This document shows positions 18,241 through 41,397 of a DNA stretch of 64,000 nucleotides, one piece after another. Under the pieces are notes generated by a model. It was given only the letters and a program-made list of their open reading frames with translations, ran no database searches and was not told the origin of the DNA. Within the stretch, counting starts at the first letter, position 1, and each line of letters opens with the position of its first letter. The translations under genes were made by a program, and so were the position numbers. The stretch covers positions 1 to 64,000 of the forward strand of contig CAIVJW010000094.1 in the NCBI GenBank assembly GCA_903906315.1, read 5' to 3'. The stretch is from an uncultured delta proteobacterium (GTDB lineage Bacteria; Myxococcota_A; Polyangia; Polyangiales; Polyangiaceae).

Positions 18241-18286
18241 CACGGCTTCCGCAGCCTGGGGCTCGAGCCCCGGCGGCGGCCTCGTG

Positions 18287-19846: not shown

Positions 19847-19913
19847 GAATCGCTCCTCGTTGCCGCTTCAAAGGCGGGCCGACCGATGCGCCCAGCAGCC
19901 GCAGACCATGCCG

Positions 19914-21937: not shown

Positions 21938-22047
21938 GGAACCCAACCGACCCCCCCAAGGAGTTTCGAGGCATCCAGACACTACGCTCTTCGCCCGGGT
22001 AGCCGGGGCATGGTACATCGGCCTGGCTCCTGCGAGCGCAGCGCCGC

Positions 22048-23930: not shown

Positions 23931-23945
23931 CGGCGTCCGTTCCTG

Positions 23946-24908
23946 CTAGCCGAAGAAGTAGTAGAAGCGCGGCAGGGTAGCGAGCTCCTCCTTGAGGACG
24001 TAGACCCGCTTGCTCTCGATGATCTTGCGAATATCGCTGTTCGGGTCGTTCAGATTGCCGAACTTGCGTGCGCCCGTGGGGCACGCCTCGAGGCACGCCG
24101 GAAGCCTACCCGTCCTCGTCCGATGAAGGCAGAAGGTGCACTTCTCGACGACGCCCTTGTGCCGAGCTCGGTTCGAAAGGTAGCCCTGGGTCGGATTGAT
24201 TCGGTCTGGCGGGATGCTGGCTTCGACGAAGTTGAAGCGGCGGGCGAAGTAGGGGCACGCGACGACGCAAAACCGGCAGCCGATGCACCAGCTGTAGTCG
24301 ACGACGACGATGCCGTCGGGCTCCTTCCAGGTGGCCTGGACCGGGCAGGCCTTCACACAGGGCGGATTGTCGCACTGGTGGCACTGCACCGGCATGTAGA
24401 ACTTGCCCTCGGCCGGCACCTTCTCACGGTCGTAGTAGGGCGTCGCCTCCTCGAATTCGAGAGAGCCCTTTTCCATCTCGAGGACCCGAATGTATCGAAT
24501 TTCGGGGTCGTCTGGGAGGTTGTTCTCTCGCGCGCAGGCCTCCACGCACCGGCGACTCCCATTGCACACGGAGAGATTGAGCGCGTAGGCGAACTCGACA
24601 CCGTCGATGGGGGCGGGGTCATTCATGTGGATGGTCACACCACTTCGACCGCGCACCTCGTCTTCAATCAGGGCGAAGATCCGCTTCTTGTCGTCCGGCG
24701 TCAGCGTCTTGTAATGCTGGCGGAGAAACTCCTCCCCGGTTGGAGCGCCGATTCCGCAGCCCTCCGTCGCTGCGGTCGCGGCGGCAGCGGCAGCGACCTT
24801 GAGGAAGGTTCGGCGCGTCCCGGAGTCGTCGACACGCTGGTCGACGAGCCCATGCGTGACATCGTCCCCGGAGGACGAGGCTGCGCAGTGTTCAGTGTCC
24901 TTTGCCAT
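23946..24908 (-). CDS. Tat-exported multi-[4Fe-4S] ferredoxin subunit (HybA/PsrB-like)
   Basis: 320 aa. A Tat motif RRTFLK with a long Ala-rich core (about residues 32-50) predicts export. Four clusters are visible. Site 1, CNGSRRCVEAC, has Ser where the second Cys is expected, so it may hold a modified or three-iron cluster. The others are CHQCDNPPCVKACP, CIGCRFCVVACP and CTFC-x11-CLEACP. It would pass electrons between the NrfD subunit and periplasmic cytochromes. The start overlaps the upstream cytochrome gene by 17 bp, and GAAGG precedes the ATG. Confidence 0.87.
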   Translation of the reverse strand: MAKDTEHCAASSSGDDVTHGLVDQRVDDSGTRRTFLKVAAAAAATAATEGCGIGAPTGEEFLRQHYKTLTPDDKKRIFALIEDEVRGRSGVTIHMNDPAPIDGVEFAYALNLSVCNGSRRCVEACARENNLPDDPEIRYIRVLEMEKGSLEFEEATPYYDREKVPAEGKFYMPVQCHQCDNPPCVKACPVQATWKEPDGIVVVDYSWCIGCRFCVVACPYFARRFNFVEASIPPDRINPTQGYLSNRARHKGVVEKCTFCLHRTRTGRLPACLEACPTGARKFGNLNDPNSDIRKIIESKRVYVLKEELATLPRFYYFFG

Positions 24909-25518
24909 GTCCTTCGCTCTCGCCCTCCTCCGGGCCCATCGCGTGCGTCTCTGCAGGCGCCGTCCTCGGCCACTCGGGCATTCGCTCCGGCTTCATGGGA
25001 GCGAAGGCGGGGGAGTGGGGGTCATGGCAATTGGGACAGGATCTGCGTACTTGGGCACCGTTCCAGAAGCCCGTCGTCAGTCCGTGCAGGCCAGCTTTCC
25101 AGTCGCGGAACTTGTCGCCGTGGCAGGAGCCGCAGACCTCGTATGCGTGGTCGAAGTCGACGAGGGTCCCGTCCTGAAGGTGCAGCTTGTCGATGTCGTC
25201 TTTTGTGTGGCAGCGATAGCACCACCCACCCTGCGTCCCGTGGTTGAGGACCTTGTGGGTGTGAAACTCCGTGAATTTGCGCTCGCGAGGGTCCGGCTCC
25301 CGGTTCGGCGAGAAGTGGCACCGGGAGCACGGATAGGTCGAGAGCAGGGGCGTCCTCGCCTCGACAGTCACTACGACGCTGGACGTGCCACCCTTCGGCA
25401 GCTGGCGGTGGTGCAGCGGCTCCTCCGACTGGTTGCAGCCGGCGGCCAGACTGGCGAACGGGAGCAGCACGGTGGCCCCGAGGCGAGGCGAAATGTAGGC
25501 TAGCCAGGGGAGGCGCAT
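24892..25518 (-). CDS. Tetrahaem cytochrome c lipoprotein
   Basis: 208 aa from the ATG at 25518, the in-frame start that leaves a short signal ending in LAAGC (lipobox near residue 28); the frame stays open upstream to about 25800 and no start has a strong ribosome site. Four CXXCH sites occur: CSRCH, CYRCH, CGSCH and CPNCH, with many extra His for axial ligation. The C-terminus is rich in Glu, Gly and His. It is the first gene of the leftward operon and probably takes electrons from the ferredoxin/NrfD pair. The start is less certain than the rest. Confidence 0.75.
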   Translation of the reverse strand: MRLPWLAYISPRLGATVLLPFASLAAGCNQSEEPLHHRQLPKGGTSSVVVTVEARTPLLSTYPCSRCHFSPNREPDPRERKFTEFHTHKVLNHGTQGGWCYRCHTKDDIDKLHLQDGTLVDFDHAYEVCGSCHGDKFRDWKAGLHGLTTGFWNGAQVRRSCPNCHDPHSPAFAPMKPERMPEWPRTAPAETHAMGPEEGESEGHGKGH

Positions 25519-25850
25519 CAGCGCGGGCGGCGTAGCAAGGGGCGTGCCGGGAGGGTTCGCGGGCGGTCCCGTCGTAGCCGTCGGGGCGCTGCGGTTCGCG
25601 GCTCTGCGTTGGCCGACCATTGGAGTGCCGGCGTGCGCATCCGTTGCGGGGGATCGGGTCGTGCCGTGACTCGATTCGTCCCGGGGGGTCACGCCTGGCG
25701 TCGCGCGGCGCCGTCGTGTGGCGAGGCGCCTCGCCGCAAGGTGCGCGCGTCTCGCGCAAGAGCTGCGGCCCATTTGGCTCAAATTCCCCTTGAAAGCCAT
25801 GGCTCATGACGTGCATAAGGCCGCGTGTCCCCTTGCACGAGGAACGTTCG
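25519..25850. promoter_or_regulatory. Divergent promoter region between the two inner-membrane operons
   Basis: About 330 bp separate the start of the tetrahaem lipoprotein gene (leftward) from that of the Rieske gene (rightward). Promoters for both operons should lie here. I see a slightly AT-richer patch around 25775-25810 but no clear -24/-12 or -35/-10 pair, so the position is inferred from gene orientation only. Confidence 0.45.
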
Positions 25851-26333
25851 TTGTCCGACTCGACCCCCCCGCCGGAACACGCTGGCATGCAGCCCGAGGC
25901 GCCCCAGTTGGCCCCTGCTCCGCGCCGAGACTTTCTGAGTGTTGCCGCTGGAGGCAGTGCGGTCGCGTTTGCCGCGGCTGCGGGCTACCCGGTCCTGCGG
26001 TACATGGAGCCGCGGACGCGTCCGCCCTCGGGCCCGACGACGATTGGCCGGCAGGAGGAGTTCCCCCCGGGGGCAGCGAGGATCGTTGCGGTCGAAGACC
26101 GGCCGGTTCTCGTCATCCGGGGCGAAGACGGGAAGTTTCAGGCATTCGTCGCGCTGTGCACGCACCTACAGTGTGTCGTCGGGTACTCGAAGGAGCGCAA
26201 GCAGATCGAGTGCGGTTGTCACCGAGGCGTCTACAATCTCGAAGGGCTTAACGTCGCGGGGCCGCCCCCGCGGCCGCTGGAAGTGCTCGATGTGGCCCTG
26301 CGGGATGGCATGGTCGTCGTGAGTGAGGCGTGA
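25851..26333 (+). CDS. Rieske 2Fe-2S protein of a bc-type complex
   Basis: 160 aa from a TTG at 25851 with GAGGAA six bases upstream; ATGs at 25806 and 25887 are alternatives. An RRDFLS motif followed by an Ala/Gly-rich helix resembles a Tat-type membrane anchor. The cluster-binding motif is complete: CTHLQC and CGCHRG, giving two Cys and two His ligands plus the disulfide Cys pair. It transfers the first electron from quinol. The stop overlaps the cytochrome b start (ATGA). Confidence 0.9.
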   Translation: MSDSTPPPEHAGMQPEAPQLAPAPRRDFLSVAAGGSAVAFAAAAGYPVLRYMEPRTRPPSGPTTIGRQEEFPPGAARIVAVEDRPVLVIRGEDGKFQAFVALCTHLQCVVGYSKERKQIECGCHRGVYNLEGLNVAGPPPRPLEVLDVALRDGMVVVSEA

Positions 26334-27364
26334 TGGAAGCGGGCGGACGGCGCACTGGATGGCTTGCGGACCGCTCTGGTTGGTCCGACCTCGTTCGGCC
26401 TCTCGAGGCGCGACGCGTCTCTGCCACGGGCTTCGATCGGTACCTTGGCGGCATCACGCTGCTCCTCTTCCTGATCGAGGTGGCGAGCGGCATCCTTCTG
26501 CTGCTTTACTACAAGCCGGATACGGTCCAAGCGTACGCCTCCGTCGGGCGAATCGTCGGCGAGATCCCCTACGGCAATCTCATCCGGAACGTGCACGCCT
26601 GGTCTAGCGACCTGTTCGTTGCCAGTCTCGGCGGTCACTTGCTTTCGGTCGTGCTGCGCCGGGCCTACCGCGCGCCCTATGAGCTCCGCTGGCTCAGCGG
26701 GATCGTGCTGCTCGCCATCGGAATTGGGCTCGCATTCACCGGAGCCGTCCTGCCGTGGAGCCAGAAGGCCTACGTTCAGGCTCGCGTCGGCAGCGAGCTC
26801 GCCCGATACGTGCCGGTGCTGGGCGATTGGCTTCATCGGTTCTTGCGCGGGGGCGACGAGGTTACCTCGGCGACGCTGCAGCACGCGTTCGGGTTTCACG
26901 TCGCGGTGCTTCCTGCTGCGTTGTCTCTCTTCTTCGCTGTCCACGTCGTTCTCCTCATGAGAAAGCGCGAGGAAACGGCTCCGGTCGAGGGGGCCTCGAT
27001 TCCTGTCTATCCGGATTTCATCATCAGGCAAGCGGCCGCCTGGACCGGCGTCGTCGTCGCGGTCATCACGCTCGCGACGTTTTCGGATCGTCTTCTTGGC
27101 TCGCCTGCTGATCCGCGCATGGCGACTCCCAGCGACGCTAGGCCGCCGTGGTACTTCCTCTGGTTCCACCAGATCGTTGCGTCGTCGTCGCGCGATCTAT
27201 TGGGCGTGAACGGGCCCAAGTTTCTCGTGGGTACTGCGTGCTTGCTCGGTGCGCTCGTCGTGGGGCTTCCATTTCTCGATCGAAGAGGTTGGAAAGTCAC
27301 TGCGTACTTGGCGCTCGTCCTCGTCTTCGTCCTCGTCGTGCTGTCAGTCAATGCGCTCTCCTAA
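26330..27364 (+). CDS. Cytochrome b of a bc-type complex (cytochrome b6-like with extra helices)
   Basis: 344 aa. Helices B and D carry the haem histidines: HAWSSDLFVASLGGH (14 apart) and the pair in HAFGFH...FAVHVV. The Qo-site region usually reading PEWY appears as RPPWYFLWFHQIV (about residues 265-277), so Glu of PEWY is replaced by Pro. About eight hydrophobic segments are present. With the Rieske protein it should oxidise quinol and pump protons by a Q-cycle or a variant. There is no cytochrome c1; the next gene is a nonahaem cytochrome whose start lies inside this gene's end. Confidence 0.88.
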   Translation: MMEAGGRRTGWLADRSGWSDLVRPLEARRVSATGFDRYLGGITLLLFLIEVASGILLLLYYKPDTVQAYASVGRIVGEIPYGNLIRNVHAWSSDLFVASLGGHLLSVVLRRAYRAPYELRWLSGIVLLAIGIGLAFTGAVLPWSQKAYVQARVGSELARYVPVLGDWLHRFLRGGDEVTSATLQHAFGFHVAVLPAALSLFFAVHVVLLMRKREETAPVEGASIPVYPDFIIRQAAAWTGVVVAVITLATFSDRLLGSPADPRMATPSDARPPWYFLWFHQIVASSSRDLLGVNGPKFLVGTACLLGALVVGLPFLDRRGWKVTAYLALVLVFVLVVLSVNALS

Positions 27365-28694
27365 CCGCAACGCAATCCGCCTCTCCGTGATCGCGCTCGC
27401 GCTCGCGGCCCTCGCCCGTCAGCCGGACGCCGCTGCCGGTCCGCCGGTTCCGGCGGCGTCCGCCTCGGCTTCGCCGGCATCGAGTCGGGCGCTGACGCCG
27501 CCTCTCGAGTCCGCAAATACCTGCGTGACGTGTCATGCCGGCCTCGCCGATCCGAAGCTGCGAGCGCCCACGACGGAGTATTCGTCGAGCGTGCACCGCG
27601 ACGACCGGATTGGTTGTGTCGGCTGTCACAAAGGGGATCCGCGCGACCCGACCGCGGGCGCCCATCGGGCGGCCGGCTTTCTCCCGCACCCGTCGCACGC
27701 CGAGATCGCGGGCGTCTGCGGCGGTTGTCACAGCGATGCCGGGTTCATGCGGCACATCAACGCGCGGCTGCCGGTTGGTCAGCAAGCCCTGTTCAATCTC
27801 AGCCTCCATGGCAAGCTGTCGGGGGCTGGGGACACCATGGCCCCGACGTGCTCGGTCTGCCACGGGCGGCACGAGATTCTGCCGGCAGCGTCGCCGAAGG
27901 CGCCCGTCAACCGATTGAACGTCGCGAAGCTATGCGCTGGGTGCCACGCCGACCCGAAGCACATGGCGCCCTACCAGATCCGAACGGATCAGTTCGCCAA
28001 GTGGGAGCGCAGCGTTCACGGTGAGGCCTTCAAGAAGGGCAATCCGCTGGCGCCGACCTGTACCGGCTGCCACGGTGCGCACTCGGCGACGCCTCCCGAG
28101 GCGTCGTCGGTTGCACGGGCTTGCGGGCGCTGCCACGAGGAGGAGCTTGCGCTTTTCGAGCAGAGCCCGCACTCGAAGGGCTTCAAGAAGCGAGGGCTGG
28201 CTCCTTGCGTCGCTTGTCACAGCAACCACGACGTCGCGCCGGCGAGCTCGCTGCATGTGGGCCTCACTCCGGACGCCACGTGCACGAAGTGCCACTCGAA
28301 CGACGAGAAACCGCTGAAGGCCGCGGACGAGCTCGCCGGTTTGCTTCGAGGCGCGCGTGATCGTGCGGCGGCGGCCCGTGCTGCGGTCGCCCGCGCGGGT
28401 GACGAGGGGCTCCATATCTCGGGGGCACCTTTTGCGCTGGACCAGGTGGCTACTGCGGAGCTGAAGTTGAGGCCCGTCGTCCACACGCTCGACCCGAAGC
28501 GGATGGCGGTGGCTGTCGCAGCCGTCGAGCAGGCGGCTGCCGCGGCCGAAAAGCTGGTCACTGACGCGGAGCAGGGGAGGAGAATTGAGCGGCGCGGCTA
28601 CTACGCGGCGCTTGCGCTCGCATTCTTGCTGTTTTCGACGCTTTCCCTGAAGGCTTGGCAACTAGAGGGGCGACGGAGGCTGGGTTCACCATGA
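27351..28694 (+). CDS. Nonahaem cytochrome c, tail-anchored, in place of cytochrome c1
   Basis: 447 aa from the ATG at 27351, which overlaps the cytochrome b end by 14 bp. A signal peptide (cleavage near DAAAG) is followed by nine CXXCH sites: CVTCH, CVGCH, CGGCH, CSVCH, CAGCH, CTGCH, CGRCH, CVACH, CTKCH. Then comes an Ala-rich helical part (about 340-420) and a C-terminal membrane helix. Intervening SVH and SLH motifs, as in octahaem cytochromes of the NrfA/HAO style, may be axial ligands. Its place suggests it receives electrons from the Rieske protein. It ends as ATGA with the 34-haem gene. Confidence 0.85.
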   Translation: MRSPNRNAIRLSVIALALAALARQPDAAAGPPVPAASASASPASSRALTPPLESANTCVTCHAGLADPKLRAPTTEYSSSVHRDDRIGCVGCHKGDPRDPTAGAHRAAGFLPHPSHAEIAGVCGGCHSDAGFMRHINARLPVGQQALFNLSLHGKLSGAGDTMAPTCSVCHGRHEILPAASPKAPVNRLNVAKLCAGCHADPKHMAPYQIRTDQFAKWERSVHGEAFKKGNPLAPTCTGCHGAHSATPPEASSVARACGRCHEEELALFEQSPHSKGFKKRGLAPCVACHSNHDVAPASSLHVGLTPDATCTKCHSNDEKPLKAADELAGLLRGARDRAAAARAAVARAGDEGLHISGAPFALDQVATAELKLRPVVHTLDPKRMAVAVAAVEQAAAAAEKLVTDAEQGRRIERRGYYAALALAFLLFSTLSLKAWQLEGRRRLGSP

Positions 28695-30952
28695 CGTCGC
28701 CCGTGGCCGCCAGCGGTCGCCGAGGAGCGGCCCGAGGCGGAGTTCGGCGGTACCTCGTTCTCCTCGCGGTGGTTGCGCTTGCCGTGCTCGTGGGCGCTGC
28801 GGTGTACCGAACGCACGGCTATGTCAGCCATGAGGCGGCGTTCTGCGGCGGGTCGTGTCACATCCCGAAAGACGCCACGGACTCGTGGCACTCCCGCGGG
28901 CACGAGGGTGTGCAGTGCCAGTCGTGTCATCCGGTGAACACGGGGTCGAGCTACGGCTTGCTCTGGCGCAAGGTGCTTGCAACGAGGGACGTCCCGAAGC
29001 ATGGGAAGGCGGAGGCGCGCGAGTGCACGAGCTGCCACCAGAAGAAGCCGGCGGAGTGGCGCCTGATCTCGGCTACCGAGGGGCACCGGACTCATCGTGC
29101 GGTCAAGGACGTCGACTGCATCGCGTGCCACGGGCCTGCGACGCACAAGGCGCCCGCGCCTGCTGAGCAACTGTGCCTGAAGTGCCACGAGATGGCGCGC
29201 TTGCACAAGCAGGCGAACGATGCCGAGACCTGTCTTTCCTGCCACAGCTTCGCCGTGAGCTCGCGCTTGGCTCAGAAGCTCACGACGCGCGCGTGCGAAG
29301 GGTGTCATGCCGACCCGGCGAAGATCCTCGAGGCAGCCAAACCAGGTGCGAAGCTGCCTGCGAAGCTCGTGGGGCCGGAGGTGTTGCACGGGGGGTTGGA
29401 CTGCAAGCTCTGTCACGACCCGCACGGTCGTAAGCCTCGTGTTCCCGAGGGGCAGCCGGTTTGCGCGCGGTGCCACCAGTTCGAGATGTTTCAGGCCGGC
29501 ACCGAGGAGCGAAAGGGGCCTGAGGGGCACCGTAACTGCGAGGGGTGCCATCGTCCGCACATGGAGCGCAAGCACGCTCTGGATTCGTGTGTGCGTTGTC
29601 ATGAGACCCGCGCAAAGGGCATCACTGCCGCAGGAGCGGGGACGTCGAGCGCGACGAAACACCGTAGCTGCGCGAGCTGTCACCTGCCGCATTCGTGGCG
29701 GGCGGAGCGTGCCGGCTGCATGACGTGCCACGAGGACAAGGCGGCGAGCATTCTCAACGCGAGTCCGGCAGGGCACAACGAGTGCACGAAGTGTCACGAC
29801 GTCCATGGGCCGCCGCCGAGCGGACAGGTCTGCCTGAAATGTCACAGCGATACGAAGTCGAAGCACGTCGCATTGGCGCCTGCTCGGCATAAGGACTGCA
29901 CTGCGTGCCACAATCCCCATGCGGCGAGCCGCGTCGTCGCTCGAGGCGCGTGTGCGGGATGCCACACGCAGCAGCTCGCGAACGTCATGCGGGACGGCCC
30001 GCAAGGGCATGCGAAGGGCGGGTGCTTCGGCTGTCACAAGCCGCACGAGAACCCGTTGCCTCCGGCAGATCTTTGCAGCCAGTGTCACGGGGAGAAGGCG
30101 AAGGTCGTCGCTGCTGCGGGCCCGCCGAAGCACCGCGTTTGCACCTCGTGTCATCAGCCACACAAGTTCGCCATCACGAGCGCCGCCGCGGCATGTTCGA
30201 AGTGCCATGGCCCTATCATTCAGCCCGGGGGGCCACACCAGGGCGATTGCAAGAAGTGCCACACCTTGCACGGCACGCCCACTGTCCCGAAGAGCGCGTG
30301 CTTCGAGTGCCATCAAAACGTATCGGCGGTCTTCAAGCCGCCGCCTGGCAACGAGCAGCATTCGAAGTGTCGCTCGTGTCATCAGCCGCACCGGCCGGCG
30401 TCGACGGCTCCGGCGAAGTGCCCGACCTGCCACCAGCCGAAGGCGGAGGTTGCCAAGGCTTGGCCCCCGAGCTCCGCGCACGCTCAGGAGTGCAACAAGT
30501 GTCACCAGCCGCATGATGTGCGGAGCAAGAAGCCCTGCGTCGAGTGTCACGCGAGCGAAGCTGCCAGCGCGATGGGTGGGAAGCACCAGTGTATGCAGTG
30601 CCACCCGCCGCACAAGGCGCCACCGGGCGCAGGGCCTGCTTGGTGGGGGCGCTGCCAGAGCTGCCATGCCGAGAAGGCTCAGAGCGTGAAGAGCCGTGGG
30701 CCGAAGCACTCCGAGTGCAAGAACTGCCATCAGCCGCATCGGTTTGCGGTGCCAGCGTGCACGACCTGTCATAAAGCCATGCAGGACAAGGGGGCGCACG
30801 GTATCAAGGAGCACGCTGCCAAGTGCAACGCCTGCCACAACCCTCATACGAGCGACGCGCCAGTTCGCGCTCAGTGCCTCGCTTGTCACACGAACAAGCA
30901 GAGCCATCAGCCCGAGGCGCAACGCTGCCAGGCTTGTCACCCGTTTCTGTGA
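28691..30952 (+). CDS. Giant 34-haem cytochrome c with NapC-like N-terminus
   Basis: 753 aa from the ATG at 28691 (ATGA overlap with the previous gene; GGAGG upstream). One N-terminal membrane helix (about residues 25-45) lacks a clear cleavage site, so it may stay membrane-anchored. I count one CX3CH site (CGGSCH) and 33 CXXCH sites, roughly one per 22 residues, up to CQACHPFL at the very end. Most sites occur in pairs, with -PH- after one member (CTSCHQPH, CNKCHQPH, CKNCHQPH), giving a repeated fold. There is no catalytic domain. A periplasm-spanning electron wire or store is inferred; it is the last gene of the Rieske/cytochrome b operon. Confidence 0.88.
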   Translation: MTSPVAASGRRGAARGGVRRYLVLLAVVALAVLVGAAVYRTHGYVSHEAAFCGGSCHIPKDATDSWHSRGHEGVQCQSCHPVNTGSSYGLLWRKVLATRDVPKHGKAEARECTSCHQKKPAEWRLISATEGHRTHRAVKDVDCIACHGPATHKAPAPAEQLCLKCHEMARLHKQANDAETCLSCHSFAVSSRLAQKLTTRACEGCHADPAKILEAAKPGAKLPAKLVGPEVLHGGLDCKLCHDPHGRKPRVPEGQPVCARCHQFEMFQAGTEERKGPEGHRNCEGCHRPHMERKHALDSCVRCHETRAKGITAAGAGTSSATKHRSCASCHLPHSWRAERAGCMTCHEDKAASILNASPAGHNECTKCHDVHGPPPSGQVCLKCHSDTKSKHVALAPARHKDCTACHNPHAASRVVARGACAGCHTQQLANVMRDGPQGHAKGGCFGCHKPHENPLPPADLCSQCHGEKAKVVAAAGPPKHRVCTSCHQPHKFAITSAAAACSKCHGPIIQPGGPHQGDCKKCHTLHGTPTVPKSACFECHQNVSAVFKPPPGNEQHSKCRSCHQPHRPASTAPAKCPTCHQPKAEVAKAWPPSSAHAQECNKCHQPHDVRSKKPCVECHASEAASAMGGKHQCMQCHPPHKAPPGAGPAWWGRCQSCHAEKAQSVKSRGPKHSECKNCHQPHRFAVPACTTCHKAMQDKGAHGIKEHAAKCNACHNPHTSDAPVRAQCLACHTNKQSHQPEAQRCQACHPFL

Positions 30953-31394: not shown

Positions 31395-32090
31395 CTATTG
31401 TGGATGGAACTCGAGGGATGCCTCGATTCGAACGACGTCGTCGATGCTGTCATGCATGCAGACGCTCATCAGGCGCTTGGCGTTCTCGTTGAGACCGTAG
31501 TCGGAGATTCGGACCTCCGTCGGCTTGGTCGTCTTGACCCAGATCGTGCCGGTCGGGAGCACGCCGAGGTCGACGGCCAAGAGGACCCGCGCTGTGCGTT
31601 GGTGCAGCGTCAAGTCGCCGTCGAGCTTGGCATGGAGGACCGGCTTCTTGTCGCGTAATCCGACGAGGGCGCTTTCGGGCAGCGGGCGCATGACCAGCTC
31701 CGCGGTGTCCTTCGCGGAGGTTTCGAAAAAGAACTGCTTTACGCGCTCGTTGCGCATGGGGACGCCGGATTCGAAGGTTCCCAGGTCGAACGAGATTCGG
31801 CCCGACGACAGCGCCGGCTCGCCCAGGGCGAGCACCCCGTCGCGCAGGGCCATCGTCGCCACCACCGGCGTCGTGGCATCGTGGTCCTTGACGATCGTCA
31901 GCTTGATCGAGCTTCTCTGCAGATCGAGCAGGACCTCGCCGCTCTTGGCGACCCGCGGGGGAGAGGCCTTCGTCGCCTGGGTGCCGGCGGGGCCCGCGGT
32001 CGGGCCGGCCGTTGTCTCGCGTCGGCCGCACGCGACCGTCAGCATCGCGCCGACGATTGTCATCCTACAAGCCAGCGCCTTTGGATTCAT
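31395..32090 (-). CDS. YceI-like lipoprotein
   Basis: 231 aa. The signal ends in VACG (lipobox near residue 21), then an Ala/Thr/Pro linker. The main domain (about 50-230) has the YceI lipocalin-like pattern: an SSIKLTIVKDH opening strand, SFDLGTFESGVPMRNERVKQFFFE with the conserved RN-x-x-x-x-x-FF turn, a ...LDGDLTLH strand and a C-terminal SDYGLN segment. YceI-type proteins bind polyprenoid lipids such as quinones. The gene is set opposite the cytochrome operons, so a link to quinone handling is only suggestive. Confidence 0.75.
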   Translation of the reverse strand: MNPKALACRMTIVGAMLTVACGRRETTAGPTAGPAGTQATKASPPRVAKSGEVLLDLQRSSIKLTIVKDHDATTPVVATMALRDGVLALGEPALSSGRISFDLGTFESGVPMRNERVKQFFFETSAKDTAELVMRPLPESALVGLRDKKPVLHAKLDGDLTLHQRTARVLLAVDLGVLPTGTIWVKTTKPTEVRISDYGLNENAKRLMSVCMHDSIDDVVRIEASLEFHPQ

Positions 32091-32402: not shown

Positions 32403-33245
32403 ATGCGTATGGCGTATGTGCTGGTGGCTGGGATCGTGGTCGCCGGGGCGCTCGCTGCCGGCGGGATTGATCGGAAGTTCGGCCACACGAGCGAGGCGAC
32501 GCCCGCCCCGGAGGCGACGGTGGCGGCTGCCGCCGGTCACGCGGCGGCCGCGCCGGCGGCGGACGACGCGACCGAGGTCATTGCGGGTGAGGTGCTCGAG
32601 ACGCTGGATGCGGGCCGGTACACCTACGTCCGCATCGGCCCGAAGGGCTCACCGGGCACCTGGGCGGCCGTGTCGAAGGAGCCCATCGAGATTGGCTCGA
32701 CGCTGAAGATCGCGAACGCGGTCGCCATGAAGGACTTCAAGAGCGAGACGCTGAAGCGCACGTTTGCGACCGTCTACTTCGGTGTCGTGGACCGTGGTGG
32801 AGCCCCGAGCGACGGGACCCACGGCGGCGCGCTGCCCGGAAGCGCACACGGCGGGGACGTCGATCCCGCGAAGAACCCGCACGGCAACCGGCCCGACGTT
32901 CCCGCGGACATCAAGGTCGGCAAGGTCGAGCGCGCCAAGGGGGGCAAGACGATCGAGGAGATCTGGGCGAAGAAGGCTGAGCTCGTCGGCAAGAAGGTGG
33001 CGGTGCGCGGCGTCGTCGTGAAGCGCACGAACGGCGTGTTGAACAAGAACTGGCTGCACCTCAAGGATGGATCCGGCGGGCAGCCGAGCGGCGACGACGA
33101 CCTCGTCGTGACCACGACCGAGACCGTCGAGCTCGGCCAGACCGTGGTGCTCGAGGGGACCGTCTTTGCGGACAAGGACCTCGGTTCCGGCTATCGCTAC
33201 CCCGTGCTGGTCGAGGACGCGGCAGTCATCAAGGACTCGAAGTAA
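32403..33245 (+). CDS. Exported OB-fold (nucleic-acid-binding-like) protein
   Basis: 280 aa from the ATG at 32403, eight bases after GGAGG. A signal or anchor helix (residues 1-22) is followed by an Ala-rich linker, a first OB-like beta-barrel (GEVLETLDAGRYTYVRIG...TWAAV, about 60-120), a Gly/His-rich linker with HGG repeats, and a second OB-like barrel (KKVAVRGVVVKRTNGVLNKNWLHLKDG, about 195-275). Such exported OB-fold proteins are known beside multihaem cytochrome genes in metal-reducing bacteria; their job is unclear. It heads the conduit operon, 198 bp before the barrel gene. Confidence 0.7.
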   Translation: MRMAYVLVAGIVVAGALAAGGIDRKFGHTSEATPAPEATVAAAAGHAAAAPAADDATEVIAGEVLETLDAGRYTYVRIGPKGSPGTWAAVSKEPIEIGSTLKIANAVAMKDFKSETLKRTFATVYFGVVDRGGAPSDGTHGGALPGSAHGGDVDPAKNPHGNRPDVPADIKVGKVERAKGGKTIEEIWAKKAELVGKKVAVRGVVVKRTNGVLNKNWLHLKDGSGGQPSGDDDLVVTTTETVELGQTVVLEGTVFADKDLGSGYRYPVLVEDAAVIKDSK

Positions 33246-33443
33246 TCGAGTGAATGGCTGCGCATGGTTTGCGCCCTGGGCGCAGAATCGACCGGCGTCC
33301 GGCGGGGCGACACGCTTCCGTTGGGCGTCTTGGGGGCTGGTACGCGGCTTGTTAGCGAGCCGCGCGCGATGCCGAGCACGCGGGTCGTCGCGCGCCGGGT
33401 CGGCCGCGCTTCTCGGCCCCGCAGGTCTGTAAGTGACGTTGCC

Positions 33444-34871
33444 ATGAGGATTCGACTCCCGATCGCCGCCGCCACCGTCCTCGCCGCGATCACGTGCTCC
33501 GGGCGAGGCGCCGCGCAGGCTGCGGCCGAGTCGGCGCCGGCGGCGCCCGCGCGTGCGGTCGAGCGGCGGCCCGACGCCGATCAGACGACGGTCCGCGTGG
33601 ATTCCGCGACGTACGTCCGCTACTTCCAGCGAGCGCTTCTGCCGGGGCCTGGGGGCGCGCTCGTCGAGAGCACCTCGACCGCGCCCCTCTACGAATACGC
33701 GGCGGTGCGCATCGACGGCATCGATACGCCCTGGAAGAAGGACAGCGTCGACGTCGAGCTAGCGGGCTGGGCGAACGTCAACCTCGGTGACGCCGAGGGG
33801 GGGCTCCGTGCGGACGGAGACGTGACGGTCGCGAGCGTCCGGCATCGGCTCGGGCCAGCCTACGTGACGGTCGGGCGCCAGCTCCGGGTGGGCGGGGCGG
33901 CTCGGTTCTCCCGCTTCGACGGCGCGTCGGCGGGCGTACGGGCTCCGTTCGGTGTGGGAGCGGACGCTTACGGTGGTTGGAGCGTGCTGCCTCGTTGGTC
34001 CCAGCAACCGGGGTACCATCTGCTCGGGTCCGCGTCCGACACGCTGCTCAGGAACCCGGAGGCGCTGCCGCCGACGTCCCGGAACGGCTACTGGCTTGCG
34101 GGGGGACGCGCGTACTACGCATACCGAACGAAGGCCGAGCTGGGCGTATCGTTTCACGAGCAGCGAGAAGCGGGTAACCTCGGTCGTCGGGATGTTGCCG
34201 CTGACCTGCGCATCGCACCGTGGGAGGTCGTCTCGCTGTCCGGCCAGGCGATGATGGACGCCGACTCGTGGTCGCTCGCGGACGCGCGCGGAGTGCTCGA
34301 GGTGGCCCCGCTTCGGTGTATCTCGATCACGGGCGAGTACTTGCACACGGACCCGTCGCTGTTCTTGTCACGCCAGTCGCTCTTCAGCGTCTTCGCGACG
34401 AACGCCTTCGACGAAGCCGGCGGCACCGTCACCTGGAGGCCCGTGCTAGCGCCGCAGTTGCAGCTTGCGGGTGGCGGCTTCGTCGAAATGTTCCGCGACG
34501 GCGAAGCGGGCTACCGGGCAAATGGGCGCTTGCGGTATTCGATGCGTCGCGACCGGGTCGTCGGTCAGGTGGCGTACACGCGAGTCCACGAGATGCAGAA
34601 TGGCTACCACGGCGGCCGCATCTCTCTGGGGGTTCGGCCCATCGAGCAAGCCGCCTTGAACTTCGAAGGCTACCTTTACCTCTATGACGAGACGATCCGA
34701 GGGGCCTCCTCCTCGCTCGTGGGGGCCGCGAACGCGGAGTGGAGCCCGAGCCGCCTGTTCTCGCTTCTCGTGGGCGGCTCCCTCGCGCGCACGCCCTACG
34801 CTTCGCTCGACGCGCAAGGCCTCGTTCGTGCGATCGTCCACTTCGAGACTCGCGCTGGAGGTGCCCGTTGA
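33444..34871 (+). CDS. Outer-membrane beta-barrel of a porin-cytochrome conduit
   Basis: 475 aa from the ATG at 33444, which opens a signal peptide (cleavage near GAAQA). The mature chain is almost entirely alternating beta-strands with aromatic girdles (for example DSVDVELAGWANVNLG and QLQLAGGGFVEMFRDG) and a closing IVHFE strand near the C-terminus. The size fits the OmbB/OmbC porins of Geobacter rather than larger MtrB. No haem motif is present. The stop overlaps the TTG start of the dodecahaem lipoprotein gene, strongly coupling the two. An insulating sheath for a cytochrome wire through the outer membrane is inferred. Confidence 0.72.
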   Translation: MRIRLPIAAATVLAAITCSGRGAAQAAAESAPAAPARAVERRPDADQTTVRVDSATYVRYFQRALLPGPGGALVESTSTAPLYEYAAVRIDGIDTPWKKDSVDVELAGWANVNLGDAEGGLRADGDVTVASVRHRLGPAYVTVGRQLRVGGAARFSRFDGASAGVRAPFGVGADAYGGWSVLPRWSQQPGYHLLGSASDTLLRNPEALPPTSRNGYWLAGGRAYYAYRTKAELGVSFHEQREAGNLGRRDVAADLRIAPWEVVSLSGQAMMDADSWSLADARGVLEVAPLRCISITGEYLHTDPSLFLSRQSLFSVFATNAFDEAGGTVTWRPVLAPQLQLAGGGFVEMFRDGEAGYRANGRLRYSMRRDRVVGQVAYTRVHEMQNGYHGGRISLGVRPIEQAALNFEGYLYLYDETIRGASSSLVGAANAEWSPSRLFSLLVGGSLARTPYASLDAQGLVRAIVHFETRAGGAR

Positions 34872-35947
34872 GCCGCGCATCGGTCCTTGCCGTCCTCGCG
34901 CTCGCCGCCGCGCTGGGGGCGGGGCTCGGCTGCAGCACTGGGGCGTCGACGCGTTTTCCGCACGCCCCCCACCTCACCGGCAAGAATTGCGGTGGCGCGG
35001 GGCAGCTCGCCTGCGCGACGTGCATGACCTGCCACGCGGGCGTGCGCGAGTCGAATGACAAGGCGTTCCCGACCGTCGCACGCTGCGCGAGCTGTCATGC
35101 GTCCGGGGCGACTCCGGAGGGCGACTCCGTCACGGTGAAGGGGATTCGATACGCTGGGCCCAGTGCCGCTTCGCCGGCGGTTCAGGCCTCGAGGGCGATC
35201 GTGTTCTCCCACAAGAGCCACATGCCGCGCGCTGGCATCCGCGAGCAGTGCATGAAGTGTCACGCGGGGGCGCCCGACGATGGCAAGTCGGCGGCCATGT
35301 ACCCGCCGATGGAAAAGTGCCTGACGTGCCACGACCAGGGCTTCGCGGTCGGCGACTGCCGGCGCTGTCACCAGGCGGGCGACCTCACCCGCCTGCGTCC
35401 GGAGAGCTTCCTCCGCCACGACGCCGCGTTTTTTCGCGACCATGGCGTGAAGGCCACGCAAAACCAGAAGGTTTGCGCGCAGTGTCATTCGCAGAACTGG
35501 TGCAACGACTGTCACGACCCGAGCCAGACGATGACGTTCGAGGCCCGGAACCCCGACGCATTTCAGCGGGAGATGGTCCATCGAGGCGACTTCGTCACGC
35601 GGCACTCGATCGAGGCGCGCTCTGCCGTGGCTACCTGCCAGCGGTGCCATCAGCCGTCGTTTTGCGACAGCTGCCACGTGCGGCGTGGCGTGTCGGGTGG
35701 CGCGCAGGGCGCCCGCAACCCGCACCCCGTGGGTTGGGTAGGGCGCAATGCGTCGGGGCCTAACTTCCACGGAGCAGCCGCGAAGCGGGACATCGTGACG
35801 TGTGCGGCATGCCACGATCAGGGGCCGGCGACGAACTGCATCTTGTGTCACCGCGTGGGCGCCGCCGGCGGTAATCCTCATCCGAGCGGCTGGTCGAGCT
35901 CGCGCTCGTCGCAGTCCGCGATGTGCAGGTACTGTCATGGTGGCTGA
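34868..35947 (+). CDS. Dodecahaem outer-membrane lipoprotein cytochrome (OmcB-like)
   Basis: 359 aa from a TTG at 34868; GGAGG six bases upstream and the TTGA overlap decide this start over longer frames. The signal ends in GLGC (Cys about 20). Twelve CXXCH sites follow: CMTCH, CASCH, CMKCH, CLTCH, CRRCH, CAQCH, CNDCH, CQRCH, CDSCH, CAACH, CILCH, CRYCH. FSHKSHM and HRGDFVTRHS supply likely axial His. The length and haem-to-residue ratio are those of a compact nanowire cytochrome; OmcB of Geobacter is also a 12-haem lipoprotein paired with a porin. It probably spans or caps the barrel. Confidence 0.82.
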   Translation: MSRASVLAVLALAAALGAGLGCSTGASTRFPHAPHLTGKNCGGAGQLACATCMTCHAGVRESNDKAFPTVARCASCHASGATPEGDSVTVKGIRYAGPSAASPAVQASRAIVFSHKSHMPRAGIREQCMKCHAGAPDDGKSAAMYPPMEKCLTCHDQGFAVGDCRRCHQAGDLTRLRPESFLRHDAAFFRDHGVKATQNQKVCAQCHSQNWCNDCHDPSQTMTFEARNPDAFQREMVHRGDFVTRHSIEARSAVATCQRCHQPSFCDSCHVRRGVSGGAQGARNPHPVGWVGRNASGPNFHGAAAKRDIVTCAACHDQGPATNCILCHRVGAAGGNPHPSGWSSSRSSQSAMCRYCHGG

Positions 35948-37622
35948 TCGGCTTCTCTGGCTCGCCATCGGTCTGGGCGTCTCCGCCACGCTTGGGGGCT
36001 GCCTCGAGCGTCGCGACGACGATCAGGGCGCGAACGCCGAGCCGAACCCGTGCACGCCGTGTCACGGCGCCAGCGGGCGGCCCGGTACGCCGTTGCAGCA
36101 GGCCGCTCCTCCCAACGACCTGAGCGGTAACACCGAGATGTCGGCGCCAGGGGTCGGGGCGCACCAGATCCATCTCGCCACGACCGCCGGGCACCGCGCG
36201 ATTGAGTGTGGCGAGTGCCATGTCGTCCCCCGGACGGTCGAGCAGCCCGGTCACGCGGACGGCAAGGGACCCGCGCAGTTCGTGCCGGGCCCGCTTGCCT
36301 CCTACGCGGGGCGTGCTCCGAGGTACGACGCCGTCGCGCATACGTGCAGCAACGTGTATTGCCACCTCGACGCGACCCCCCAGTGGACCGCGCCGCGCGT
36401 CGATGCGTGTGGGACATGTCACAGTTTGCCACCCGCCGCGCCGCATCCTCAGTCCAAAGACTGCTATGCGTGTCACGGCGAGACCGTCGACAAGTCGGGC
36501 GCCATCGTCGACGTCACCAAGCACATCGACGGCAAGGTGGAGGTCTCGCAGACTTGTCACAGTTGCCACGGTACGCCCGAGTCCGTGGCGCCGCCCAGGG
36601 ACCTGGCGGGTAACACGGATCCGTCGGCACCGGGCGTCGGGGCGCACCAGAAGCACCTCGCGGGCGGCGCAAAGAGCCGTCCGATCGCGTGCGGGGAGTG
36701 CCACGTGGTGCCGGCGAAGGTCGGAGATTCGGGGCACCTGGATGACACCGAGGGGGCTGAGGTCACGTTCAGCGGGGTGGCGAGGACGGAGAAGCACGAG
36801 CCGAGCTTCGACGCGAAGACGCTCCGCTGCGCGGACTCGTGGTGTCACTCGCCCCAGCCCGACGGCAAGCCGGCGGCGTCGCCGCGCTGGACGGGTGAGG
36901 ATGGCGACCCGACCTGCACGACCTGTCACGGTCAGCCGCCGTCGGCGCCGCACGTGCAGATGTCCAATTGTTCGTTCTGCCACCTCGATGTCGCGGGTGA
37001 TGCCAAGGACTCGATCAAGAATCGGGCGCTCCATGTCGACGGCAAAGTCGAGGTGGTGCTTCCGACGAAGTGCAATGCGTGCCACGGCAGCGCCGACTCC
37101 GACGCCCCCCCGCGCGACGTCGCGGGCGAGACGGCGACCACGGCGCGCGGGGTCGGTGCGCACCAGAAGCACCTCGGAGCCAGCTTGGTTTTTCGCAAGG
37201 TGGAGTGCAACGAGTGCCACGTCGTCCCGGCAACGGTGAAGGCGGCAGGTCACTTCGACACCCCGGCGCCCGCGGAGCTCACCTTCTCGGGCGTGGCGAC
37301 GGCGGGCGTGGCGAAGCCGCAATGGGACGGCGTGAAGTGCTCGGACACGTATTGCCACGGGACGGCGGTGAAGGCCGGCCAGGACATGAAGGGCTCGGTT
37401 CCGGCGCCCGAATGGACGAAGGTCGACGGGTCGCAGGTGTACTGCGGTAGTTGCCACGGCATCCCGCCGATCGAGACGGACCCGAACAAGCCTCAGACGA
37501 CGCACCCGATCGCCTACGAGTGCCCGGACTGTCACAAGAACCTCTCGACGGGCTTCATCTTCAAGGACCCCTCGCTGCACGTGAACGGCAAGGTGGACAT
37601 GACCGTCGGGGTCGATCTCTGA
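35937..37622 (+). CDS. 15-haem lipoprotein cytochrome with CX4CH sites (Geobacter CxxxxCH...CXXCH-type repeats)
   Basis: 561 aa from the ATG at 35937, overlapping the previous gene by 11 bp. The lipobox is LGGC. Three similar repeats (about residues 20-195, 195-365, 365-545) each contain GVGAHQ-x-HL, a CXECHVVP site, a CX4CH site (CSNVYCH, CADSWCH, CSDTYCH) and further CXXCH sites. I count 12 CXXCH plus three CX4CH. The combination matches the CxxxxCH...CXXCH domain first noted in Geobacter (I recall it as TIGR01904). It is probably a surface or periplasmic partner of the barrel. Confidence 0.82.
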   Translation: MVADRLLWLAIGLGVSATLGGCLERRDDDQGANAEPNPCTPCHGASGRPGTPLQQAAPPNDLSGNTEMSAPGVGAHQIHLATTAGHRAIECGECHVVPRTVEQPGHADGKGPAQFVPGPLASYAGRAPRYDAVAHTCSNVYCHLDATPQWTAPRVDACGTCHSLPPAAPHPQSKDCYACHGETVDKSGAIVDVTKHIDGKVEVSQTCHSCHGTPESVAPPRDLAGNTDPSAPGVGAHQKHLAGGAKSRPIACGECHVVPAKVGDSGHLDDTEGAEVTFSGVARTEKHEPSFDAKTLRCADSWCHSPQPDGKPAASPRWTGEDGDPTCTTCHGQPPSAPHVQMSNCSFCHLDVAGDAKDSIKNRALHVDGKVEVVLPTKCNACHGSADSDAPPRDVAGETATTARGVGAHQKHLGASLVFRKVECNECHVVPATVKAAGHFDTPAPAELTFSGVATAGVAKPQWDGVKCSDTYCHGTAVKAGQDMKGSVPAPEWTKVDGSQVYCGSCHGIPPIETDPNKPQTTHPIAYECPDCHKNLSTGFIFKDPSLHVNGKVDMTVGVDL

Positions 37623-37753: not shown

Positions 37754-40141
37754 ATGCGGACTTCGATTGCCATTGCTTGCCTCGCCGGCGCGGCCCTCGC
37801 GGCCGGGTGCGTGGGCGCGGACGGACTTCAGGGCTCGAAGGGCGAGGCGGGGCCGGCTGGCTCGGTCGCGGTCGGGCCCCAGGGACCCGAGGGGACGACC
37901 GGGCCGCAGGGCGCGGACGGTAAGCTCGGCGCGGATGGCAAGAACGGCGCTGATGGCACGTCGGTGTCTCAGGTGGGGGCCGTGCAGGGGACCGTCGTCG
38001 ACGGCGACGGCGCGCCGGTTGGCGACGTCGCGATCGAGACGGATCCGCCGACTTCCAAGCTCACCTCCGACGCGAAGGGCGCCTTCTCTTTGAAGGACGC
38101 CAACATCGGCGCCTACACGCTGACGGCCACGAAGAAGGGCTACGGCGTCGCGAGCCTCGTGTTCGGCGTGGTCTCGTCGGCAACGACGACGGTGAAGGTC
38201 ACGATGACCGCGCTTCCCGCGATCGCGGCGGCGTCGATCTCCGGGCTCGTGCAAGGGCCGTCTGGGCAAGCGCTTGCCGGTGCGAAGGTGTCGGTCGACG
38301 GCCAGGGCCTCGAGGCCACGACGGCGCAGGATGGGACGTTCACGATCACCGACGTGATGCCGGGGTACCTGTTCCTGTCGGTGAAATCGCCCGACGCGAG
38401 CAAGTACCTCGATGGCGACACGCGGTCGGCGATCAGCGTGGCGCCGGCAGCGAGCGTGAAAGACCTCAAGATCGCTCTCTCGGGGCGGCCGAGCGACGGG
38501 GCGACGTACATCGGCACGTATCTCTGCGCGGGCTGTCACAAGGCGTATGGCAATGAGCACAAGGCCAGCGCGCACGCCCGCTCGATCACGCCGGACGCGT
38601 CGCGCCTGGTCGCGAAGAACCTCTGGCCGAGCGTCGGCGCGACCGTCGACCCCGGCGTGAAGGCGCTGAGCCCGGTGGACGGCCTGGCGCTCGTGTCCGT
38701 CGTCCTCTGCCAGAAGACGGCCGGCGTGTACTCGATGAAGTTCGGCGGAGCTGCGGACTGCGCGGCTGCCGACGGGACGGTCGTGCCCGTGGCCGGCACC
38801 TACGGCGGCGAGGGCGACGGTGGCGTCGACCAGAAGCCGAACCTCGGGGTCCACAAGCAGCAGTTCTTCGCGAAGCTCGCGGACGTGCCCGTGGCCGCCG
38901 GGTGGACGTACACCGCAGGCAAGGACAAGGACTACCTCGTTCTGCCGGTCCAGGTGACCCAGAGCGGCGGCGGTCCCAAGCTCGAAGCGTATCGTGCGGT
39001 CGCCACCGCGAAGGGGGACGACGGCTGGACGAATCGCGGCCAGACGTTCTCGCATGCGTGTGCCGGTTGCCACGTCGTCGGGCTGACGCTCGACTGGGAA
39101 AAGCAGTCGGGCAAGTCGTACATCACGAAATTCGCCTACGCGGACCAGGACCTCGACCCGTCGCATCAGCTGAACATCGCTTGCGAGGGCTGCCATGGTC
39201 CGGGCAGCGACCACTTCGACGCGGCGAACGGGCAGAAGCCCGACACGATCATCCGGCCGAAGCTCCTCAGCGCGAAGGCGGAGCGGGAGCTTTGCGGCAA
39301 GTGCCACGGGGCTCACGACGGCGTATCGGCGGACCCGCCGGGCCTCGGGTACCCCTGGAATGCGGCCAATGCGGCCAAGCTGGGCGGCGGGGAGTTCTTC
39401 GCCGGCGCGTTCGCCCTGGCCGACTATATCGGCAACCTCGATTCTGGGGGCGTCGTCAATTGGCCCGACGGCAAGCACGCGAAGGAGCACCGCCAGCAGG
39501 GCGCCATGTTCGAGCTCTCGGTGCACGCCAACAATAGCGTCGAGCGACTGGCCTGCTCGAACTGCCACAACCCGCACTCGCAGGCCAACGGGCCGACGAA
39601 GTTCCCGGTGGCCGACGCCTCCGGCGATACCTACGAGCTGACGAGCCCGGGCCTCGGCGATAACACGGTCTGTCTCGGCTGCCACGCTGGGTTCGGGCCG
39701 TACGCGTCGGTGGCGAAGGCCGACGTCGCGAACGTCCTCGTCGGCGGCGGGGGCGCAGCCAAGAAGAACGGCGCCGCCTACGCGCCGACGGCTTCCGAGA
39801 TCGCGGCGTCGAAGGCGGCTTTCGCGTCCAGCGTGACGGGCCATATGTCGCTCAAGTCCGCGATGTCGCTTGCCGGGTACGACCCGGAGAGCGCGGCGAA
39901 TCCGGTCGGGCGCTGCTCGTCGTGCCACATGCCGAAGACGGGCAAGTCGGGTGGGTTCACCATCGCGAACAACAAGGCCGGTGTTGCCGCGATGGTGGGC
40001 GGCGACGCGGCGTCGCACGTGTTCGATGTGGTCCAGCCGTGGCAGGGGCAGGCGACCGCGAAGGGCGCAGCGTCGCCCGCCGAGGTGATGCCGAACAGCT
40101 GCGGAAGCTGCCACATCGAGGATCGGTTCGCGCCGAACTGA
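37754..40141 (+). CDS. Octahaem lipoprotein with collagen-like and carboxypeptidase-regulatory-like domains
   Basis: 795 aa; the ATG at 37754 has AAGGAGG upstream. The lipobox is AAGC (Cys19). Order: collagen-like Gly-X-Y repeats (about 28-72, as GPQGPEGTTGPQG), two carboxypeptidase regulatory-like beta-sandwiches (about 75-150 and 155-245), then a cytochrome region (about 255-795). That region has eight CXXCH sites: CAGCH, CAGCH, CEGCH, CGKCH, CSNCH, CLGCH, CSSCH, CGSCH. CEGCHGPGSDH and CSNCHNPHS resemble cytochrome c554-like proteins. A cell-surface terminal reductase or contact cytochrome on a stalk is inferred. The last gene before the terminator at 40164. Confidence 0.8.
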   Translation: MRTSIAIACLAGAALAAGCVGADGLQGSKGEAGPAGSVAVGPQGPEGTTGPQGADGKLGADGKNGADGTSVSQVGAVQGTVVDGDGAPVGDVAIETDPPTSKLTSDAKGAFSLKDANIGAYTLTATKKGYGVASLVFGVVSSATTTVKVTMTALPAIAAASISGLVQGPSGQALAGAKVSVDGQGLEATTAQDGTFTITDVMPGYLFLSVKSPDASKYLDGDTRSAISVAPAASVKDLKIALSGRPSDGATYIGTYLCAGCHKAYGNEHKASAHARSITPDASRLVAKNLWPSVGATVDPGVKALSPVDGLALVSVVLCQKTAGVYSMKFGGAADCAAADGTVVPVAGTYGGEGDGGVDQKPNLGVHKQQFFAKLADVPVAAGWTYTAGKDKDYLVLPVQVTQSGGGPKLEAYRAVATAKGDDGWTNRGQTFSHACAGCHVVGLTLDWEKQSGKSYITKFAYADQDLDPSHQLNIACEGCHGPGSDHFDAANGQKPDTIIRPKLLSAKAERELCGKCHGAHDGVSADPPGLGYPWNAANAAKLGGGEFFAGAFALADYIGNLDSGGVVNWPDGKHAKEHRQQGAMFELSVHANNSVERLACSNCHNPHSQANGPTKFPVADASGDTYELTSPGLGDNTVCLGCHAGFGPYASVAKADVANVLVGGGGAAKKNGAAYAPTASEIAASKAAFASSVTGHMSLKSAMSLAGYDPESAANPVGRCSSCHMPKTGKSGGFTIANNKAGVAAMVGGDAASHVFDVVQPWQGQATAKGAASPAEVMPNSCGSCHIEDRFAPN

Positions 40142-40341: not shown

Positions 40342-41397
40342 TCAGGCCGGCTCGTAGGCGCAGAGCGGGTCGGAGCCGAAGGGGCTGCCGGTCGCGGCGT
40401 AGGCACGGGCGCGCGACCCGCCGCAGAGCGCGCGGAAGTCGCACCGGCCGCACTTGCCCTCGAAGTGCTTCGGGTCGCGCAGGCCTACGAACACCGGCGA
40501 GTTGCGGTAGACGTCGAGGATGCTGTCCGTCTTGGCGTTGCCCGCGACGAGCGGCAGAAACCCCGACGGGTTGATCTCGCCGTCGTGGCCGATGAACATG
40601 ACGCCGTTGCCGTCGCGGATGCCGAAGCCGCGCGCGAGCGGGTGGCTTGCGAGGGCCTCGGCCGGGTGGCCTTGCGCGCGCAGGTGCTCGACCACGATGC
40701 GGCGGTAGTGCGGCGCCTCGGTCGTGGTCGTGATGGGGCCGGGCTTGCGTGACCGCTCCCAGACCCATTGAAACAGGGTCTCGCATTCCTCGGGAGTGAT
40801 CTGTCCGAGCACCTTTCCGCGCCCGACGGTGATGAGGAAAAAGAGGCTCCACCGCTGGGCGCCGAGGTCGGTCACGAGGCGGTCGATGGCCTGGAGGTCG
40901 CCCATCGTGCCGGTCGTCACGAGGGTGTTGATCTGCAGCAGGATGCCGGACTCGATGGTGTCGCGCGCGGTGGCGAGCGTGCGATCGAACGTGCCGGGCA
41001 CGCCGCGCAGCCCGTCGTGTCGCGCCGCGGTGGACCCGTCGAGGCTCAGCGACATCGCTTCGACCCCGGCCTGCTTGAGGCCGAAGATGCGCTCGCGTGT
41101 CAGCAGTGGCGTCGCTGCGGGCGAGACCGAGACGTGCAGCCCGAGGCCGACCGCGTGGGCGAGCAGGTCGAGGAAGTCCGCCCTCTTGAGGGGGTCGCCG
41201 CCGGTGAGGATGACGTGGGGCTTCGGGGGGCCGAACGACGCGAGCTCGTCGAGGACGTGGAGCGCCTGCGCCGTCGACATTTCGCCGGGCGCGCTCCAGG
41301 GCTGCGCCTCGGCCCGGCAGTGCGTGCAGGCGAGATCGCAGGCGCGCGTGATCTCCCAGTAGACGCGCTGCGGGGCTTCGGAGAACACGTAGCTCAT
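40342..41397 (-). CDS. Radical SAM/SPASM-like protein (TIGR04053-like)
   Basis: 351 aa. The radical SAM motif CDLACTHC is at residues 20-27, and LTGGDPL gives the SAM-binding GGE-like loop. The C-terminus has a second Cys set, CGRCDFRALC followed by a distant Cys (DPLC), as in SPASM or Twitch auxiliary Fe-S regions. The layout WEITRACDLACTHCRAEA with SLDGSTAARHD recalls the TIGR04053 group, and also AhbD/NirJ enzymes of alternative haem and haem d1 synthesis. The substrate is unresolved. It is convergent with the 109-haem cluster, which makes a tetrapyrrole or cytochrome-maturation role worth testing. Confidence 0.78.
   Translation of the reverse strand: MSYVFSEAPQRVYWEITRACDLACTHCRAEAQPWSAPGEMSTAQALHVLDELASFGPPKPHVILTGGDPLKRADFLDLLAHAVGLGLHVSVSPAATPLLTRERIFGLKQAGVEAMSLSLDGSTAARHDGLRGVPGTFDRTLATARDTIESGILLQINTLVTTGTMGDLQAIDRLVTDLGAQRWSLFFLITVGRGKVLGQITPEECETLFQWVWERSRKPGPITTTTEAPHYRRIVVEHLRAQGHPAEALASHPLARGFGIRDGNGVMFIGHDGEINPSGFLPLVAGNAKTDSILDVYRNSPVFVGLRDPKHFEGKCGRCDFRALCGGSRARAYAATGSPFGSDPLCAYEPA

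Follow-up and report, generated by a model that had tools for sequence, protein, structure and literature searches.

The 64,000-nucleotide stretch of DNA analysed here (the window: positions 1 to 64,000 of contig CAIVJW010000094.1, assembly GCA_903906315.1, from an uncultured member of the Polyangiaceae) contains three plus-strand genes at 33444-37622 which, on direct reading of the sequence, code for a porin-like outer-membrane barrel, a 12-haem lipoprotein and a lipoprotein with 15 haem-binding motifs. We consider it likely that this trio is a porin-cytochrome conduit of the Myxococcota, which would carry electrons outward across the outer membrane and would be fed by a quinol-oxidizing operon. 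The proposed path has the following steps: a Rieske/cytochrome b pair would oxidize quinol and pass the electrons to a membrane-anchored 9-haem cytochrome and thence to a 34-haem protein bridging the periplasm to the conduit; the 22-strand barrel would act as an insulating sheath, with the lipid-anchored 12-haem protein inside it as the haem wire; finally, the modular 15-haem lipoprotein on the outer face would take up the electrons and deliver them to an extracellular acceptor, plausibly Fe(III)/Mn(IV) minerals, humics or another cell.

The barrel and its two lipoprotein cytochromes

The barrel protein has 475 residues and a Sec-type signal peptide (best start, ATG 33444). Its AlphaFold2 model, computed from a 27-sequence alignment (mean predicted local distance difference test score, pLDDT, 81.8; predicted template-modelling score, pTM, 0.75), has 22 long strands and no plug, and the standard barrel formula with a shear of 24 gives a predicted backbone radius of ~20 Å, versus 23.5 Å for barrels that, like MtrB, have 26 strands. 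The barrel is hence wide, and not too narrow, as a preceding reading made from the sequence alone (the sequence-only reading) had allowed it might be. Its fold matches are to β-barrels generally, with MtrB (6r2q_B; Z 14.4, 349 residues aligned) tying with ushers, OprD and TonB-receptor barrels. None of the sequence profiles from Pfam, NCBIfam or PDB recognizes the family, and TIGR03509, the MtrB/PioB model, matches 0/27 of its members at E <= 1. A TIGR03509 profile search of the window's own genome likewise returned no match, but its controls were silent too and it is no evidence of absence. Membership in the MtrAB group was rejected, as neither the MtrB nor the MtrA family model gave a match.

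The barrel stop codon and the TTG start of the 12-haem gene (34868) share 4 bp (TTGA), with GGAGGT lying 5 nt upstream of that start, and the 12-haem gene in turn overlaps the 15-motif gene (ATG 35937) by 11 bp; both overlaps had been pointed out in the sequence-only reading and are confirmed by direct reading. The first of them recurs in nearly all of the relatives' loci that have both genes. An 11-bp overlap of the 12-haem and 15-haem genes is present in nine loci and an 8-bp one in another four, 13 loci altogether. Gene starts in the relatives were picked by their distance to the expected N-terminus, overlap not being a criterion. Because the same overlaps recur in these relatives, the coupling of the three genes is not a matter of chance. 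A promoter and terminator scan gave terminators at chance level and found no promoters.

The 12-haem lipoprotein (359 residues, lipobox LGLGC) is strongly constrained: the lipobox cysteine (Cys22), every one of the 12 CXXCH motifs and another 11 histidines are invariant across 27/27 aligned homologues. These 11 histidines are candidate distal ligands, and their number would suffice for bis-histidine ligation of eleven haems. Among homologues in Myxococcota loci the motif count is 12-13, and 14 once. In a comparison of its profile with PDB chains the best match is 3ov0 (E 1e-14), with MtrA (6r2q_A) weaker at E 4e-6, and TIGR03508, the MtrA-type 10-haem model, does not match. A Foldseek search with its predicted structure gave weak matches to alternative complex III cytochromes (VIA Z ~5), which we did not use as evidence.

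The third protein (561 residues, lipobox LGGC) does have the 15 motifs first counted in it, but they are not uniform: 12 are CXXCH and three CX4CH, arranged in three five-motif repeats with 39-46% mutual identity. It is matched at E 6e-33 by TIGR01904, a Geobacter CX4CH/CXXCH domain, and haem attachment at the three CX4CH motifs is only putative. Its homologues have 8 to 28 CXXCH with 2 to 8 CX4CH motifs, the family varying by copies of the five-haem unit; those in three loci of other Myxococcota groups (L170, L171, L176) have 24-28 CXXCH, apparently by repeat expansion. A fixed count in the 12-haem protein and a variable one in its neighbour fit a situation in which the barrel, with its set length, constrains the former, whereas nothing limits the latter outside. 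In Geobacter, the surface cytochrome is likewise the variable component (PMC6148476).

Conservation and the probable link to quinol oxidation

Full-length homologues of the barrel (40-51% identity) are found in ~22 places in 144 relatives, with a patchy distribution within the same family, and each is adjoined by a 12-haem homologue. Of 104 Myxococcota loci in which a 12-haem homologue occurs, 98 have a barrel, 82 a 15-haem homologue, 69 a 34-haem-like cytochrome and 22 the gene for an OB-fold-like protein; these counts combine two collections sharing genomes, some of which are counted twice, and are not independent. The trio thus co-occurs widely, as the sequence-only reading required. That reading had also taken two features as distinctive. 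The order barrel-12-haem-15-haem holds in the window's family, but in the rest of the phylum the 15-haem homologue mostly comes first, then the barrel and the 12/13-haem gene, and a large cytochrome often follows. The OB-fold-like protein does lead the cluster in the window, but it is an optional neighbour: its gene lies 199 bp upstream of the barrel ATG, without tight coupling, and its position varies in relatives. The closest named homologue loci come from Polyangiaceae, Polyangia and other Myxococcota, mostly from metagenome assemblies and also from the complete genome of Minicystis rosea DSM 24000; no Anaeromyxobacter is among them.

The window's genome has a second such pair (C127, locus L062, ~13453-16589, minus strand), in which a barrel-like open reading frame directly precedes a 13-haem relative of the 12-haem protein. 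This relative apparently lacks a lipobox, and similar 13-haem relatives are present in most genomes of the family. A further genome, G149, was considered as a possible Anaeromyxobacter and set aside, as its locus has a guanine-plus-cytosine (GC) content of 0.61 and it has a 7-haem relative.

Upstream of the trio and on the same strand are the Rieske, cytochrome b, 9-haem and 34-haem genes (Table 1), with mutual overlaps of 4-14 bp. The 9-haem gene occupies the place of a cytochrome c1; the 34-haem gene overlaps it by 4 bp, and 33-34 motifs are kept in close relatives. The functional unit probably includes this operon and so extends beyond 32403-37622. As a gap and an opposite-strand gene intervene in the window, the link is drawn from relatives: in L043 and L048 the genes run continuously as OB-Rieske-cytochrome b-9-haem-34-haem-barrel-12-haem-15-haem, with 4 bp shared between the end of the 34-haem gene and the start of the barrel gene, and in L066 the order is 15-haem-barrel-12-haem-Rieske-cytochrome b-9-haem-34-haem. 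Among the 104 loci, only 7-8 have the Rieske and cytochrome b genes beside the conduit; the fused layout is one variant and not the rule.

Against the ExtP model the cytochrome b scores 176.8 bits, below the cut-off of 290. This resemblance speaks for a different proposal, namely that the barrel is the substrate pore or export gate of an oxyanion-reducing system, with the cytochromes as reductases and not as a wire: in Geobacter, the gene for ExtI shares a cluster with those for Rieske, cytochrome b and multihaem proteins, and ExtI has an effect on selenite and tellurite reduction (PMC5877670). We regard this as improbable, since no NCBIfam porin model matches the barrel and its coupled 12-haem partner has conserved candidate histidine ligands, with no reductase domain recognized in family-model searches.

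Several points weigh against the conduit as we propose it, which is itself deduced from genes and predicted structures. Pairwise distances, which correlate more closely between barrel and 12-haem protein (r 0.93) than in the pairs with the 15-haem protein (r 0.87), speak in its favour, but genes inherited together would show such mirror-tree correlations in any case. In the window, the inner-membrane module ends ~1.45 kb from the OB gene, and the YceI-like gene on the opposite strand separates it from the conduit module. The AlphaFold model of the 12-haem protein alone is poor (pLDDT 62, pTM 0.41), as expected from prediction without haem. Moreover, this protein is lipidated, unlike OmaB or MtrA, which is unusual for an in-barrel component; it could sit beside the barrel, in which case the two lipoproteins would be cytochromes at the surface or in the periplasm that share only their expression with an ordinary porin. 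We give this arrangement little credence: barrel and 12-haem protein are the most constant pair across the loci, their 4-bp overlap is conserved and the haem number fixed, and the barrel is wide and has no plug domain.

The direction of flow is a separate matter, as the anatomy does not fix it. The same proteins could bring electrons inward from Fe(II), minerals or a partner cell, in the manner of MtoAB/PioAB, and terminal oxidases in the genome could pass these to oxygen. Such inward use appears unlikely: a RuBisCO large subunit was not found in the 98.6% complete genome (8.79 Mb in 455 contigs, the window being on contig 94), which gives no sign of Calvin-cycle use, and the upstream bc-type quinol oxidase fits the outward direction more simply. 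With two COX1 genes and no RuBisCO found, an oxygen-respiring heterotroph would more likely use the conduit as an electron sink; use when oxygen is short is favoured by this gene content, though not proven.

Neighbouring genes

Table 1. Genes of the proposed conduit, of the quinol-oxidizing module and next to them in the window
Feature	Position	Strand	Evidence
Rieske [2Fe-2S] protein, Tat-type RRDFLS signal/anchor	25806..26333	+	PF00355 E 2.5e-13; CTHLQC...CGCH Rieske box
Cytochrome b (b6 and partial subunit IV fused)	26330..27364	+	PF00033 and PF00032; 4-bp overlap with Rieske gene
9-haem cytochrome, C-terminal transmembrane helix	27351..28694	+	9 CXXCH, ATG 27351; Cytochrome_C7 matches
34-haem cytochrome, N-terminal transmembrane anchor	28691..30952	+	33 CXXCH and 1 CX3CH; PF03264 (NapC/NirT) at N-terminus
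YceI-like lipoprotein, probably not a conduit part	31395..32090	-	PF04264 E 1.4e-13
Exported or membrane-anchored protein, OB-fold-like domain, optional accessory	32403..33245	+	Weak OB matches
Porin-like outer-membrane barrel, 22 predicted strands, no plug domain	33444..34871	+	AlphaFold2 and β-barrel fold matches
12-haem lipoprotein	34868..35947	+	12 CXXCH, lipobox, 4-bp overlap with barrel gene
15-motif lipoprotein, three 5-haem repeats (CX4CH/CXXCH type)	35937..37622	+	TIGR01904 and repeat identity
8-haem lipoprotein, collagen-like and carboxypeptidase-regulatory domains	37754..40141	+	PF01391, PF13620, cytochrome matches; 8 CXXCH

The OB-fold-like protein received no firm family from profile searches, its domain being suggested by PF01336 in 3/10 family members and by a match to the OB region of asparaginyl-tRNA synthetase (AsnRS; E 0.084); a haem chaperone like CcmE was one candidate considered for it. 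Downstream of the trio, the 8-haem lipoprotein shows an unusual combination of collagen-like GXY repeats with carboxypeptidase-regulatory domains; it is possibly an extra surface cytochrome, and its gene is linked to the conduit in few relatives. It is followed on the minus strand (40342-41397) by a gene for a radical SAM/SPASM protein of TIGR04053 (435 bits), related to the haem b synthase AhbD; such a gene also adjoins the conduit in L067.

A divergent operon occupies 16099-25800 on the minus strand. It codes for a membrane protein of the DsrP/NrfD type, which at 406 bits passes the DsrP model's cut-off of 350, and for a ferredoxin that resembles DsrO but, at 186 bits, stays below the cut-off of 200; cytochrome b561-like domains are also present, as are multihaem cytochromes (4, 9, 8 and 10 motifs). 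This operon would add another module linked to quinol to the bc-type one. Together with the plus-strand genes it makes up a cytochrome island with ~109 haem motifs, over which (12000-40000) GC content is 0.65-0.69, versus 0.71-0.75 around it; this may reflect either cytochrome composition or horizontal gain.

Relation to known conduits and significance

This kind of conduit is already known, being preceded by the porin-cytochrome complexes (Pcc) of Geobacter and Anaeromyxobacter and by the extHIJKLMNOPQS cluster. Barrels of Geobacter Pcc are predicted to have 18-22 strands and their core cytochromes have 5-14 haems (PMC4245776). The sequence-only reading had likened the barrel with its lipidated multihaem cytochrome to these complexes, and as to general kind the likeness stands: a barrel with 22 predicted strands is combined with a proposed core and a proposed outer multihaem cytochrome, as in OmbB-OmaB-OmcB. 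It does not extend to the components as compared by description: the Geobacter core is a non-lipidated periplasmic 8-haem protein with a 12-haem outer cytochrome, whereas here a lipidated 12-haem core is combined with a 15-motif outer protein in another gene order. The Anaeromyxobacter Pcc (Group IV of Shi et al. 2014, e.g. Adeh_3392), from the same phylum, consist of two genes, for a porin and a 12-14-haem cytochrome of ~340 residues (PMC4245776). They resemble the present 475-residue barrel and its 359-residue partner; by description, however, their cytochrome is periplasmic and there is no outer one, in contrast to the lipoprotein and the third, 15-haem gene here.

The extHIJKLMNOPQS cluster of Geobacter combines a porin and multihaem cytochromes with a Rieske protein (ExtO) and a cytochrome b (ExtP) (PMC5877670). 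Rieske and cytochrome b genes (25806-27364) are likewise upstream in the window and form one run with the barrel genes in L043, L048 and L066, but the rhodanese lipoprotein ExtH and the selenoprotein ExtKL were not seen among the conduit genes, the barrel has no NCBIfam match and the cytochrome b falls below the ExtP cut-off. With the Mtr/Mto/Pio systems (MtrCAB) the conduit would share an insulated haem wire in an outer-membrane barrel; MtrAB, however, has 26 strands and 10 haems, as against 22 predicted strands and 12 haems, and MtrA is described as periplasmic.

Compared by description with these systems, the present one differs in its lipidated core cytochrome, in a barrel without a family model, in an outer cytochrome built of repeats and in its link to a bc-type operon that includes a 34-haem protein. 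A more far-reaching proposal, which we put forward tentatively and think doubtful at present, is that conduits of this class evolved independently and extend throughout the Myxococcota; their barrels would form a separate family, their core cytochrome would be lipid-anchored, and the membrane-anchored 34-haem protein would wire them directly to a bc-type quinol oxidase. One operon would then specify a path lined with haems all the way from quinol pool to surface, with no soluble shuttles.

Our search of open-licence publications returned no description of this locus in Polyangia. To our knowledge, extracellular electron transfer in myxobacteria has been described mainly for Anaeromyxobacter. 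If our proposal is true, the range of bacteria able to exchange electrons with minerals or partners would grow by those Polyangia and further Myxococcota that share the conserved conduit, among them Minicystis rosea, which has been cultured and sequenced. It would also offer a compact gene set (barrel, 12-haem, 15-haem, 34-haem and Rieske/cytochrome b) for asking whether one operon wires the inner membrane to the surface.

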